From NCBI RefSeq assembly GCF_002940685.1, contig NZ_PNFP01000008.1:62001-126000 (forward strand): 64,000 nt of DNA, read 5' to 3'. Below, one piece after another: positions 6,494-10,937 of this stretch. The position numbers and the translations under genes were made by a program. The stretch is from Ensifer adhaerens (GTDB taxonomy: Bacteria; Pseudomonadota; Alphaproteobacteria; Rhizobiales; Rhizobiaceae). Position 1 is the first letter of the stretch; every line of letters starts with the position of its first letter. The notes under the pieces are model-generated. The model did no database searches. It worked only from the letters and a program-made list of their open reading frames with translations, and was not told where the DNA came from.

Positions 6494-6510
6494 TCAAGTG
6501 GGAGGCGCAT

Positions 6511-7236
6511 ATGAGCAGGGTAGCATTGGTCACGGGTGGGTCGCGCGGCATTGGTGCTGCAATTTCCATCGCACTCAAGAATGCCGGCTACAGGGTGGCT
6601 GCCAACTATGCCGGCAATGACGAGAAGGCGCAGGCCTTCAAGCAGGAAACCGGCATCCCGGTCTACAAGTGGGACGTCTCCAGCTACCAGGCCTGTGCCG
6701 AAGGCATCGCCAAGGTCGAGGCGGATCTCGGACCGGTCGAGGTGCTCGTCAACAATGCCGGCATCACCCGCGACGCGATGTTTCACAAGATGACGCCGGA
6801 GCAGTGGGGCGAGGTGATCGGCACCAACCTGACCGGTCTCTTCAACATGACGCATCCGCTGTGGTCGGCCATGCGCGACCGCGGCTTCGGCCGCGTCATC
6901 AACATCTCGTCGATCAACGGCCAGAAGGGCCAGATGGGCCAGGCCAACTATTCGGCGGCCAAGGCCGGCGATCTCGGCTTCACCAAGGCGCTTGCCCAGG
7001 AAGGGGCCGCCAAGGGCATCACGGTCAACGCCATCTGCCCGGGTTACATCGGCACGGAGATGGTGCGGGCGGTGCCGGAGAAGGTGCTCAACGAGCGCAT
7101 CATCCCGCAGATCCCGGTCGGCCGGCTCGGCGAGCCGGAGGAAATCGCGCGTTGCGTGGTGTTCCTCGCGTCCGACGACGCCGGCTTCATCACCGGTTCC
7201 ACGATTTCGGCCAATGGCGGACAGTTTTTCGTCTGA
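6511..7236 (+). CDS. phbB: Acetoacetyl-CoA reductase (NADPH)
   Basis: 241 residues, the usual PhbB length. Short-chain dehydrogenase/reductase that reduces acetoacetyl-CoA to (R)-3-hydroxybutyryl-CoA for PHB. The Rossmann motif TGGSRGIG is at residues 8-15, NNAG at 81-84, catalytic serine in NISS about 131-134, and YxxxK as Y147 and K151. The ATG at 6511 is chosen because it gives the conserved MSRVALVTGG start and has GGGAGG seven bases upstream. The PHA synthase gene is not in this window. Confidence 0.96.
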   Translation: MSRVALVTGGSRGIGAAISIALKNAGYRVAANYAGNDEKAQAFKQETGIPVYKWDVSSYQACAEGIAKVEADLGPVEVLVNNAGITRDAMFHKMTPEQWGEVIGTNLTGLFNMTHPLWSAMRDRGFGRVINISSINGQKGQMGQANYSAAKAGDLGFTKALAQEGAAKGITVNAICPGYIGTEMVRAVPEKVLNERIIPQIPVGRLGEPEEIARCVVFLASDDAGFITGSTISANGGQFFV

Positions 7237-7262
7237 GCATCAGGTGCGCAAAACGCTTGCGG

Positions 7263-7288
7263 ACGGCGCCTTTCGAGGCGCCGTTTTC
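7263..7288 (+). terminator. Intrinsic terminator after phbB
   Basis: A perfect 8-bp stem, ACGGCGCC/GGCGCCGT, with loop TTTCGA is followed by TTTC. It lies 26 bases after the phbB stop. Confidence 0.75.
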
Positions 7289-7393
7289 ATGTGTGGAGCG
7301 GCGCGCGGCTCCTGCACGAAATCCTGAAGTTGCGCTGGCGCCTCCGTTTCCGGATTGCGGCGTAGACACTATATCTTGTGGAGAACAAAGCTG

Positions 7394-7728
7394 GAATCAC
7401 GCTCGGCCTGCGAGTCGCCGCCGCATGTTCCCGCATTGGTCGCGGCGCCGGAGTGCGATTCTCATTCTCTTCATCAGGTGAATCCCTGACGAAAATCGTT
7501 AAAAATTTTCCAGGCTTTCCAGAGTCTTGGATTCCGAATCCTTGGGGTTATCCGCCGACAAAACCGTCGCTGTTGATGCGGCTTCCGGGGCGCTCTGTGC
7601 GGATTCACCACCGGATTCAGCATGTGGTGCCACCTTCGGTGTTGAAATCTATATGTAGTCGTGAACATACAGTGAATCGCAGCGAGTCTTCGATTCGTCG
7701 CCGATTCGTTCCACGGCTGTTCCGAATC
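7394..7728. other. Dense cluster of 14 GANTC (CcrM-type methylation) sites in non-coding DNA
   Basis: GANTC begins at 7394, 7412, 7457, 7480, 7522, 7530, 7536, 7602, 7614, 7674, 7684, 7692, 7703 and 7724. At this base composition about one site per 290 bp is expected. The stretch also contains an AT-rich inverted repeat, GAAAAT-8-ATTTTC at 7491-7510, and two sequences near the DnaA box: TGTGGAGAA at 7377 (one mismatch to TGTGGATAA) and TTATCCGCC at 7548 (two mismatches). The whole gap from the phbB terminator to 7871 holds no convincing gene. The function is not known. Alphaproteobacteria methylate GANTC with CcrM in a cell-cycle-dependent way. Confidence 0.75.
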
Positions 7729-7871
7729 CCGATCGTGCCAACCACAACAGGTGGTGCAAGGGATTGAGAGCGCCGCCGAGAAGTTTTAGTTGTCTGCGCC
7801 CCTTGCGTTTGGCTCGGTGCGTGGGCATGTGTTTGCCGCCAGCGTTCAAATGACGCTGCCGTAATTTCTGA

Positions 7872-10800
7872 ATGCCCGGGATCGATGACGTGTCCGTTCA
7901 CCCCATGATCCTGAGCGGCCGCGGCGTAACTGCGGTGCTCGGGCCCACCAATACCGGCAAGACGCACTACGCGATCGAGCGCATGATCGCGCACGACAGT
8001 GGCGTCATCGGCCTGCCGCTGCGGCTGCTCGCGCGCGAGGTCTACACGCGCCTTGTCGAAAAGGTCGGCCATCACAACGTCGCGCTGATCACCGGCGAGG
8101 AGAAGATCACCCCGCATCGCGCCCGCTACTCGGTCTGCACCGTCGAGGCGATGCCGCGCGAGACGACGGCGTCCTTCGTCGCGATCGACGAGGTGCAGCT
8201 TGCCGGCGACCTCGAGCGCGGGCACATCTTCACCGACCGGATCCTGCATCTGCGCGGTCGCGGCGAGACGCTGCTGCTCGGTGCCGGGACGATGCGGCCG
8301 ATCCTTGAGCAGCTGTTGCCCGGCATCACCGTTGTCGAGCGGCCGCGCATGTCGCAACTGCTCTATGCCGGCTCGAAGAAGATCACCCGCCTGCCGCATC
8401 GCTCGGCAATCGTCGCCTTCTCGGCCGACGAGGTCTATGCGATCGCCGAACTGATCCGCCGCCAGCGCGGCGGTGCGGCCGTCGTCCTCGGCGCCCTTTC
8501 GCCGCGCACGCGCAATGCGCAGGTGGCGCTCTACCAGGAAGGCGACGTCGAATACCTGGTCGCGACCGATGCGATCGGCATGGGCCTCAACCTCGATGTC
8601 GACCATGTCGCCTTCGCGCAGGACCGCAAGTTCGACGGCTACCAGTTCCGCAACCTCAACCCGGCCGAACTGGCGCAGATTGCCGGCCGTGCCGGCCGCC
8701 ATCTGCGCGACGGCACCTTTGGCGTGACGGGGCGTGTCGACCCCTTCGACAACGAGCTCGTCCACCGCATCGAGGCGCACGAGTTCGATCCGGTAAGGGT
8801 TCTGCAGTGGCGCTCGAAGGCGTTCGATTATTCCTCGATTGCGGCGCTGAAGAAGAGTCTCGATGCGGGGCCGACGGTTCCGGGCCTTGCCCGGGCGCTA
8901 CCTGCGGTAGACCAGCAGGCGTTCGAACATTTGACCCGCTACCCGGAGGTCGTCGACATCACCACCAATTCCGAGCGGGTGGAAAAACTGTGGGAAGCCT
9001 GCGCGCTGCCGGACTATCGGCGCATTACACCGGCTCAACATGCCGACCTGATCTCGACGATCTACGCGGATCTCGTCCGCCGTGGCACCGTAAACGAGGA
9101 CTTCATGGCCGAACAGGTTCGGCGCGCCGATCATACGGATGGCGAGATCGACACACTTTCGGCGCGAATCGCGCAGATCAGGACATGGACTTATGTGTCG
9201 AACCGGCCGGGATGGCTGGCCGATCCGACACACTGGCAAGAAAAGACGCGGGAAATTGAAGATCGATTATCCGACGCACTACATGAACGGTTGACGAAAC
9301 GCTTTGTTGATCGCAGGACATCTGTGCTCATGAAGCGCCTGAGAGAGAATGCTATGCTGGAAGCTGAAATCAGTGTGAATGGTGATGTCTTCGTCGAAGG
9401 ACACCACGTGGGACAACTAACCGGTTTCCGGTTTACGCTGGCGACCGGCGGCGACGGCCCGGATGCCAAGGCCGTGCAGGGTGCTGCCCAGAAGGCGCTG
9501 GCGCTCGAGTTCGAGGCGCGGGCCGCACGGCTGCATGCTTCCGGCAACAACGACCTGGCGCTTTCGTCGGACGGTCTCGTGCGTTGGCTCGGCGATCCCG
9601 TGGCGCGGCTTTCGGCCAGCGATCACGTCATGCGCCCGCGTGTCATCCTGCTTGCCGACGACCAATTGCAGGCGAACGCCCGCGAGCACGTGGTCGCGCG
9701 CATCGAGCGTTTCGTGAACCATCACATCGGTACGGTTCTGAAGCCGCTCGACGATATCTCGCGCGCCGAGGACCTCGAAGGCTTGGCCAAGGGCCTCGCC
9801 TTCCAGCTCGTCGAGAACCTCGGCGTGCTCTTCCGTCGCGATGTCGCCGACGACGTCAAGTCGCTCGACCAGGACGGTCGCGCCTCGATCCGCAAATACG
9901 GCGTTCGCTTCGGCGCCTATCACATCTTCCTGCCGGCGCTCCTGAAGCCGGCTCCGGCCGAACTCATCACGCTTCTCTGGGCGCTGAAGAATGACGGTCT
10001 CGACAAGCCCGGTTATGGCGACCTCATTCCGATGCTCGCCGCCGGCCGCACCTCTGTTGTCACCGATCCATCCTTCGAGCGGACCTTCTACAAGCTCGCC
10101 GGCTTCCGTTTCCTCGGAAAGCGTGCGGTGCGCATCGATATCCTCGAGCGCCTCGCCGACCTTATCCGGCCGCTGTTGCAGTGGAAGCCCGGCGCGCAGC
10201 CGCGCCCGGAAGGCGCCTATGACGGTCGCCGCTTCACCGCGACGACATCGATGCTGTCGATCCTCGGTGCGACCCCCGACGATATGGAAGAGATCCTGAA
10301 GGGCCTCGGCTACCGGGCTGACAGCGTCAAGGCCGAGGAGGCCCAGGCCTTCCTCGCCGGCCAGGATGGTGCCGCAGCCGTTGCCGCCGCCGCTTCCGAG
10401 CCGGTGGCCTCCATTGATGATGCCGATGCCGGTGACAGCGCGGCGGAAGCCGAGACTGCAACCGTCGAGGCGCCTGCTGCCGAGGTCGAGCAGGCCGAAG
10501 GCGAAGCCGCCGTCGCAGGCGATGCGCAGCCCGCCGAAGCGCAGGTGACCGAGACTGGCGAGCCGGTCGAAGCCAAGCCGGTTCTGCTGTGGCGTCCGGG
10601 CACCCGCCAGGACAATCAGCGCCAGGGTGGCGGTCGCCATCAGGGCGACCAGCGTCGCGGCGGCCAGCGCCATGGGCAAGGTCAGGGACAGGGTCGTGAC
10701 GAAGGTCGCGATACCGGTCGCAAGGGCGGTCAGCAGGCCCGCGGCAAACGCCATGACGGCGGCAAGCCGGAAGGCGGGCCGCGCCAGGATCGCGGTGATC

Positions 10801-10937
10801 GTCACGATCGTCACGACCGCGGCGGCAAGCCCGGCCAGGGCAAGTTCGAGGCGCGTCCGCCGCGCCGCGAAAAGCCGGTGGATCCGGATTCGCCCTTCGC
10901 CAAGCTCGCTGCGCTCAAGGAGCAGATGAAGAAGTAA
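7872..10937 (+). CDS. SUV3-like DEAD/DEAH-type RNA helicase with disordered C-terminus
   Basis: 1021 residues. Superfamily 2 helicase core: motif I GPTNTGKT at about 24-31, motif II DEVQ at about 106-109, helicase C-terminal domain with QIAGRAGRH near 275. A SUV3-like C-terminal region follows. From about residue 815 it becomes Ala/Glu-rich, then Gly/Arg/Gln/His-rich (many RGG- and HDR-like turns), ending near EQMKK; such tails bind RNA non-specifically. Mitochondrial SUV3 unwinds RNA with the degradosome, and a related RNA-turnover role is inferred here. An alternative ATG is at 7905. The gene is 8 bases upstream of the S4-domain gene and follows the GANTC-rich region. Confidence 0.9.
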   Translation: MPGIDDVSVHPMILSGRGVTAVLGPTNTGKTHYAIERMIAHDSGVIGLPLRLLAREVYTRLVEKVGHHNVALITGEEKITPHRARYSVCTVEAMPRETTASFVAIDEVQLAGDLERGHIFTDRILHLRGRGETLLLGAGTMRPILEQLLPGITVVERPRMSQLLYAGSKKITRLPHRSAIVAFSADEVYAIAELIRRQRGGAAVVLGALSPRTRNAQVALYQEGDVEYLVATDAIGMGLNLDVDHVAFAQDRKFDGYQFRNLNPAELAQIAGRAGRHLRDGTFGVTGRVDPFDNELVHRIEAHEFDPVRVLQWRSKAFDYSSIAALKKSLDAGPTVPGLARALPAVDQQAFEHLTRYPEVVDITTNSERVEKLWEACALPDYRRITPAQHADLISTIYADLVRRGTVNEDFMAEQVRRADHTDGEIDTLSARIAQIRTWTYVSNRPGWLADPTHWQEKTREIEDRLSDALHERLTKRFVDRRTSVLMKRLRENAMLEAEISVNGDVFVEGHHVGQLTGFRFTLATGGDGPDAKAVQGAAQKALALEFEARAARLHASGNNDLALSSDGLVRWLGDPVARLSASDHVMRPRVILLADDQLQANAREHVVARIERFVNHHIGTVLKPLDDISRAEDLEGLAKGLAFQLVENLGVLFRRDVADDVKSLDQDGRASIRKYGVRFGAYHIFLPALLKPAPAELITLLWALKNDGLDKPGYGDLIPMLAAGRTSVVTDPSFERTFYKLAGFRFLGKRAVRIDILERLADLIRPLLQWKPGAQPRPEGAYDGRRFTATTSMLSILGATPDDMEEILKGLGYRADSVKAEEAQAFLAGQDGAAAVAAAASEPVASIDDADAGDSAAEAETATVEAPAAEVEQAEGEAAVAGDAQPAEAQVTETGEPVEAKPVLLWRPGTRQDNQRQGGGRHQGDQRRGGQRHGQGQGQGRDEGRDTGRKGGQQARGKRHDGGKPEGGPRQDRGDRHDRHDRGGKPGQGKFEARPPRREKPVDPDSPFAKLAALKEQMKK

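Follow-up and report, generated by a model that had tools for sequence, protein, structure and literature searches.

The promoter of gcrA in A. tumefaciens contains six GANTC sites in 250 bp. The available part of the source calls this a strong over-representation and proposes that the promoter is activated when passage of the replication fork leaves it hemimethylated (PMC11514494). The extended motif of GcrA is given as YGAKTCK (available part of PMC7987155), and in B. abortus GcrA peaks, which include lexA and uvrA, are 4.4- and 4.7-fold richer in GANTC (PMC6813329). For Ensifer, methylome data list 111 candidate CcrM targets, and single GANTC sites are non-diagnostic (available part of PMC8725594). 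The LexA motif of alphaproteobacteria is GTTC-N7-GTTC (available parts of PMC3323433 and PMC7987155).

The locus described here shares features with these systems and differs from each of them. Like the gcrA promoter of A. tumefaciens, it has multiple CcrM sites ahead of a gene. Unlike that promoter, as far as the source covers it (PMC11514494), it has 14 sites in 335 bp, is built from dyad units, precedes a helicase gene, recurs in many families and is known from sequence. With the CcrM-dependent ftsZ and mipZ promoters of Caulobacter it shares upstream GANTC, and the YGATTCG in the middle of its unit conforms to the extended motif of GcrA. In contrast to these promoters, the array spans hundreds of bases and YGAKTCK is not above background (available parts of PMC3708114, PMC11514494 and PMC7987155). 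Half-sites and their 11-bp spacing are identical to those of alphaproteobacterial LexA boxes, and boxes in the recA and lexA promoters of the same genome are similar; however, two boxes face each other at a fixed distance around GATTC and one half-site is usually degenerate (compared with available parts of PMC3323433 and PMC7987155). Several close GANTC sites are also found in the Caulobacter origin (available part of PMC3973325) and in repABC/ori2 of A. tumefaciens (available part of PMC11514494). Unlike these origins, the array is away from hemE, lacks conserved DnaA boxes and is linked to a helicase gene.

The features of the locus are listed in Table 1. The window is the whole 64-kb stretch of Ensifer adhaerens DNA that was analysed. 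Upstream of the array lies a short-chain dehydrogenase gene, which we take to be phbB (acetoacetyl-CoA reductase); this position is annotated as beta-ketoacyl-ACP reductase in S. meliloti Ak57. The downstream gene encodes a Suv3-like helicase. Its S. meliloti ortholog is called mgpS (SMc03877) and is listed with helicase genes raised under acid stress (available part of PMC4941405).

Table 1. Features of the phbB-helicase region (positions in the window)
Feature	Position	Strand	Evidence
Short-chain dehydrogenase (presumably phbB)	6511..7236	+	Pfam adh_short_C2 1.3e-59 (match given as 6508-7236)
Intergenic region, 635 bp, all 14 GANTC	7237..7871	.	best Rfam match E 0.92
Unit 1, distal, right arm degenerate	7366..7452	+	model R1 38.7 bits, E 2.2e-11
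GANTC pair between units, 7457 (22/22) and 7480 (14/22)	7457..7484	.	22-sequence alignment
Block CCAGAGTCTTGGATTCCGAATCCTT, three GANTC, each in 22/22	7519..7543	.	Ensifer/Sinorhizobium alignment
GANTC pair, 7602 (8/22) and 7614 (22/22)	7602..7618	.	Ensifer/Sinorhizobium alignment
Unit 2, proximal, intact, five GANTC	7646..7737	+	model R1 69.3 bits, E 6.3e-21
Promoter-like pair CTTGCG-N18-CATGTG before helicase (putative)	7802..7831	+	conserved in 22 sequences
Suv3-like DEXQ-box helicase	7872..10937	+	PF22527 4.1e-26, PF00271 1.1e-9

The promoter-like pair presumably resembles RpoH-type promoters. By eye, it is echoed in Rhizobium and Agrobacterium.

The original prediction claimed 14 GANTC pentamers with short gaps in non-coding DNA at 7394..7728. 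All 14 are present, starting at 7394, 7412, 7457, 7480, 7522, 7530, 7536, 7602, 7614, 7674, 7684, 7692, 7703 and 7724, and the smallest gaps are 6, 8, 8 and 10. A frame of 129 aa (7378-7767) was considered as a coding region. Seven of the 22 aligned Ensifer/Sinorhizobium sequences leave it uninterrupted, and internal stops break it in the other 15; thus, the region is non-coding, as had been stated. No Pfam match was found within the 7237..7871 gap.

GANTC is scarce across the window (75 observed, mean of 353 in dinucleotide shuffles), and the densest other 335-bp stretch contains three sites. Sequences simulated with the composition of the 635-bp gap never reached 14 GANTC with models of order 0, 1 or 2 (0/5000 each). 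An order-3 model, which memorises the sites, reached this number in 685/5000. The top 335-bp windows of the own genome hold 14 sites (the locus upstream of the helicase gene), six and five, followed by ten windows with four. This ranking covers 823,205 bp of 7.5 Mb (11%) in hand-picked, non-random stretches with 891 GANTC in total (1.08 per kb). For the relative G010, 420,000 bp were sampled; this locus has 13 GANTC there, the next window five and four further windows four. In both genomes, the 20-kb stretch that surrounds hemE reaches at most four GANTC per 335 bp. Equal density in other intergenic regions, which would speak against a special role, was not found in the sampled parts of either genome. 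A chance cluster is rejected on the simulations and the density ranking, and within the sampled part of the genome no other GANTC cluster comes near this one in strength.

Loss of the cluster in close relatives had been named as a further counterargument, and every one of the 16 genomes of the genus, the own one included, retains it, with 12-16 GANTC in the gap between phbB and the helicase gene. Nine of the 14 sites are present in all 22 aligned Ensifer/Sinorhizobium sequences and one in 20; the remaining four are kept in 14, 8, 5 and 1 of them. Outside 7646-7728, the fixed GANTC letters match in 664/755 comparisons (0.88), the free N in 153/189 (0.81) and other columns in 2597/4547 (0.57). 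The outer letters of these sites are therefore conserved above other columns, as for CcrM sites under selection. Species differ in the middle base at 7412, 7480, 7522, 7602 and 7724 but retain GANTC, which is expected if the methylation target matters. The palindrome GGATTCCGAATCC (7529-7541), located in the CCAGAGTCTTGGATTCCGAATCCTT block between the two units, includes two GANTC sites; both are present in 22/22 sequences and their middle base varies. A conserved GATTCAGCAT begins at the GANTC at 7614.

The original prediction recognized the GANTC cluster and overlooked a repeated unit of ~90 bp with GAAC/GTTC boxes, which is more conserved than the cluster. Comparison of loci shows the architecture GAAC-N7-GAA, a central YGATTCG and then GTTC. 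The two half-sites of the left GAAC pair are 11 bp apart, and the same spacing is found in the right GTTC pair where both half-sites exist. Of 185 units, 174 have a distance of 45 bp between the left GAAC and the right GTTC, and the second left half-site is mostly GAAT or GAAA. In unit 1 the corresponding elements are GAAC 7383-7386, GAAT 7394-7397 and GTTC 7427-7430, with GANTC at 7394 and 7412. The left arm of unit 2 consists of GAAC 7663-7666, N7 and GAAT 7674-7677, followed by GAGTC 7684-7688. CGATTCG is present at 7691-7697 and 7702-7708, and the intact right arm has a second GTTC 11 bp further, so that GTTC 7708-7711 and GTTC 7719-7722 form an exact LexA-type box. The Rhizobiaceae consensus of the unit is ACnATATnTTGcgGTGAACAAAnnnnGAA...GTCnGCGATTCGTCgcCGATTCGTTCC...TTTGnTC.

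Loci contain one to four units. Four are present in Rhizobium rhizogenes and three in R. johnstonii 3841; other Rhizobium have one or two. Among neighbouring pairs found by pattern, 72 of 87 are spaced 194-283 bp. The unit proximal to the helicase gene is marked by CTGAATC and GTTC-N7-GTTCC, the other units by GGGAAA and GTTCCGGCTTTGATC, with a mean of 3.7 GANTC in the proximal unit versus 2.2 in the others. The unit model was trained on 63 units picked by the pattern GA.TCGTTC plus GAAC, a choice that fixes these columns in advance. Model searches are a freer test than pattern picking, yet they are biased toward the same core.

Conserved, repeated blocks ahead of a helicase whose family includes RNA helicases could also be explained by a non-coding or leader RNA transcribed from the units. 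RNAalifold of the 63 units in the given strand predicts five pairs with no compensatory changes, and the best Rfam match has an E-value of 0.92. An RNA is thus very unlikely.

The half-sites resemble those of LexA boxes. The recA promoter of the own genome carries GTGAACAAGAATCGAAC and that of lexA GAACACATATGGAAC, and both are similar to the unit arm GTGAACAAA-N3-GGAA. Upstream of lexA (L241, ~7035-7055), two GANTC within GATTCGTTCGAATC overlap with a GTTC, as in the right arm of the unit. The array might be mainly an SOS operator array, in which LexA dimers on the GAAC/GTTC boxes control the helicase gene or a nearby promoter. The GANTC letters would then be passengers, as GATTC and GTTC overlap inside LexA-type boxes. 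The fixed 45-bp geometry and the similar boxes of recA and lexA are in line with this, and LexA boxes readily overlap GANTC (available part of PMC7987155). However, seven GANTC outside the units are left unexplained; five of these are present in 22/22 sequences, one with a free N. The second half-sites are degenerate. Exact boxes of the form GAAC-N7-GAAC or GTTC-N7-GTTC occur often, with 25 in the sampled 823 kb (one per 33 kb). The distribution of LexA is divided. No LexA-domain match was obtained in five of 101 genomes. Two of these (G021 and G068, at least 99% complete) also lack the unit, in agreement with an SOS operator. The other three (G046, G062 and G066) are incomplete (92-96%) and do contain units, and a further 25 genomes have a LexA match and no unit. 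On balance, an array serving mainly the SOS response is unlikely.

A RAMA domain, which we take as the mark of CcrM, is encoded in the own genome (7.9e-18, in a single 387-aa frame), as is GcrA (7.5e-66). Each is found in 100 of 101 genomes. Since LexA and GcrA are near-universal, their presence is non-discriminating. Most units have YGATTCG as their central site; part of this core was used to pick the units. Over all sites, no enrichment of YGAKTCK is seen in the cluster GANTC (476/1167) relative to GANTC elsewhere in the same 111 loci (275/681, duplicates included).

A search with the unit model gave a match at E<=0.01 in 74 of 101 genomes, including the own genome. Here, the two units (E 7e-19 and 3e-9) both belong to this locus and the next matches have E-values of 0.2 and 0.4. 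This speaks against an interspersed repeat. According to a by-eye comparison of the match tables for unit and helicase, 70 of the 74 genomes have a unit directly upstream of the helicase gene and on the same strand (16 of the same genus, 29 of the family and 25 of other families of the order). The order-level genomes and three others (G036, G043 and G049) were rechecked by tblastn (28 stretches from 26 genomes). The four exceptions are G020 and weak partial matches in G038, G056 and G067.

Of the 105 helicase loci that were scanned, which come almost entirely from Rhizobiaceae, 100 have a unit; it is missing in L026, L041, L044, L054 and L055. Because 80 loci are the best 80 of 567 relatives, this count and that of 16/16 same-genus genomes lean toward close relatives. 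Duplicate or overlapping loci (L001, L032, L033, L034, L037 and L047) were removed before the scan of the 105 loci and before construction of the helicase tree; the counts of YGAKTCK, of neighbouring unit pairs and of GANTC per unit still include them. The tree comprises the 99 of 105 rows with usable proteins; the fifth locus without a unit is absent from it. The four no-unit rows require four changes, which equals the number for shuffled labels. Thus, the losses of the unit in Rhizobiaceae are scattered. In two loci the unit is remote from the helicase gene, ~1.8 kb upstream in L097 (1176-1267) and ~0.9 kb upstream in L109 (2117-2205). The unit of L097 still adjoins phbB, as if an insertion had separated it from the helicase gene.

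No match was obtained in 27 of the 101 genomes; this search and the one at class level used strict filters, which weak units may escape. A full-sensitivity scan of the stretch upstream of the helicase gene (mostly ~1 kb) in 20 of these genomes found no unit in 19. The single exception (L274) has two weak partial matches. These 20 upstream stretches hold 0-3 GANTC.

At class level, 15 of 142 genomes have a match, including the own genome and one of the same order; 13 lie beyond the order. Loci were fetched from 11 of the 14 other matching genomes and the helicase gene adjoins the unit in 10 of the 11, one of these (L195) being of the same order. Outside the order, the unit is therefore present in a minority of the sampled genomes, yet again ahead of the same helicase gene. 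The array is old, tied to the helicase gene and missing in scattered lineages.

The dense cluster and the unit can be told apart in other families. The best 335-bp window of 19 such loci contains 2 to 15 GANTC, and in L153, L160-L162 and L168, where this number drops to 2-4, the unit is still there. GATTC at the centre and the boxes on either side persist in alignment rows that were anchored on GATTC and GTTC. As the unit persists while the number of GANTC varies, the dense cluster represents an enrichment that depends on the lineage and surrounds an older unit, which itself does not need it.

We use hemE as a marker of oriC. The claim that the locus is far from hemE agrees with relatives: the distance is 107-115 kb in 7/7 same-genus genomes with both on one contig. 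In the own draft genome the helicase locus and hemE are on different contigs, and the distance is read from these relatives. Two near-DnaA boxes had been reported. They are present, but at chance level (1.26 expected). The box at 7548 is matched equally well in 1 of 22 sequences; the one at 7377 is matched in 16 of 22 and is part of a unit. An AT-rich inverted repeat was also found as described (73% complementary), but it adds nothing to the case. A chromosomal replication origin is not supported, as the locus is not adjacent to hemE in these relatives and conserved DnaA boxes are absent. For the same reasons an auxiliary replication element, one of the three functions originally proposed, is disfavoured.

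Alternatively, the array could be a chromosome-maintenance site for sequestration, initiator titration or segregation, with the helicase gene next to it by coincidence. Tandem dyads resemble a nucleoprotein array, the distance to hemE stays within 107-115 kb in the 7/7 same-genus genomes and is similar in G053 of the same family (116 kb), and in a few genomes units are located away from the helicase gene, one of them between two gene ends. However, in G048 the array is 0.5 and 0.8 Mb from its two URO-D matches, so that the distance differs. The orientation along the helicase strand in 70/74 genomes, the scattered absence of the unit and the joint presence of array and helicase gene on a 489-kb replicon of Rhizobium NLR16a also argue against a maintenance site, which is quite improbable.

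The feature is very probably a working control region and not a product of chance. Given the sequence fits to the GcrA and LexA motifs, with the caveats given above, we prefer to read it as an array that controls the helicase gene. We see an even chance that it is an ancient upstream array read via CcrM methylation and overlapped by LexA-type boxes. The sequence data establish the unit with its geometry, where it lies and how well it is conserved, as well as the extreme density of GANTC; binding events, methylation and an effect on expression at the array are what we infer. In each ~90-bp repeat two GAAC half-sites, 11 bp apart, face GTTC half-sites across YGATTCG. CcrM would methylate GATTC and the other GANTC sites late in the cell cycle, and passage of the fork would leave the array hemimethylated early in replication, given the distance of ~110 kb from hemE in same-genus relatives. 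The methylation state may set the binding of GcrA, the probable reader, and RNA polymerase, or of another methylation-sensitive protein. Such methylation-dependent binding could time transcription of the helicase gene. Under DNA damage, LexA could act through the flanking GAAC/GTTC boxes to cover or free these sites.

Among the three functions originally proposed, an epigenetic promoter switch is the best fit. It agrees with the position upstream of the helicase gene in 70/74 genomes and also in other orders, with the conserved GANTC letters and with the encoded RAMA-domain protein and GcrA; switching itself is unproven. The known kind to which the array would belong is the CcrM-site-rich upstream control region. 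No account of a GANTC cluster or repeat ahead of this helicase gene was found in the open literature (supplementary tables and closed journals were outside the scope), and no description of the repeated unit was found there. A tentative possibility, which we consider doubtful, is an undescribed DNA element of alphaproteobacteria: tandem dyads that would assemble a dedicated nucleoprotein complex reading methylation and DNA damage at one locus, ancestrally tied to the helicase gene, in several orders and with up to four units and 16 GANTC per 335 bp in Rhizobiaceae. CcrM targets in rhizobia are largely undefined. As the strongest sampled GANTC cluster on an old unit, the locus offers a sharp, testable target and might connect a helicase with both the SOS response and cell-cycle methylation.

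Units apart from the helicase gene occur in G086 (contig C3, three units), G094 (C1), G079 (C1, weak), G020 (C12, two units) and the class-level locus L194. By tblastn, no helicase is present beside the units in four such stretches. The second-locus units L159 4062-4705, L178 3780-3872 and L179 4897-5673 have neighbours without a Pfam match. They keep the central GATTC and have few other GANTC. On C12 of G020, a 2.0-Mb relative, one unit is flanked by coaBC and a nitroreductase gene, both with their 3' ends toward it. One unit of this contig lies between a Cas13e-like frame (NCBIfam NF049956, 2e-145) and the Abi_2 frame beside it (L177, 10950-13914).

The patchy absence of the unit and these few copies elsewhere are all that speaks for a chance or mobile repeat. 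The simulations, the density ranking, the single-locus matches and the presence in 74/101 genomes and 100/105 loci contradict it, and this explanation is hardly credible. Phage records gave no match to the unit. The only viral contig with the exact core was rejected, as the core occurs there by chance within a long frame resembling a tape-measure gene. In the plasmid collection, no plasmid was matched by a distal Rhizobium unit, and five records contain the unit. None of the five has an annotated feature under it in a gene table that omits RNA and regulatory features. Both records that were opened place the unit before the same helicase gene. One of them (L280, CP090106.1) is a 3.72-Mb record titled S. 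meliloti pSymB; the title may be that of a mislabelled chromosome. The other is plasmid p3 of Rhizobium sp. NLR16a (L281, NZ_CP072868.1), which has the order rpmF-phaR-thiolase-phbB-unit-helicase-S4-fdxA-carD. As the whole block is present on this 489-kb replicon, genes and array moved together.
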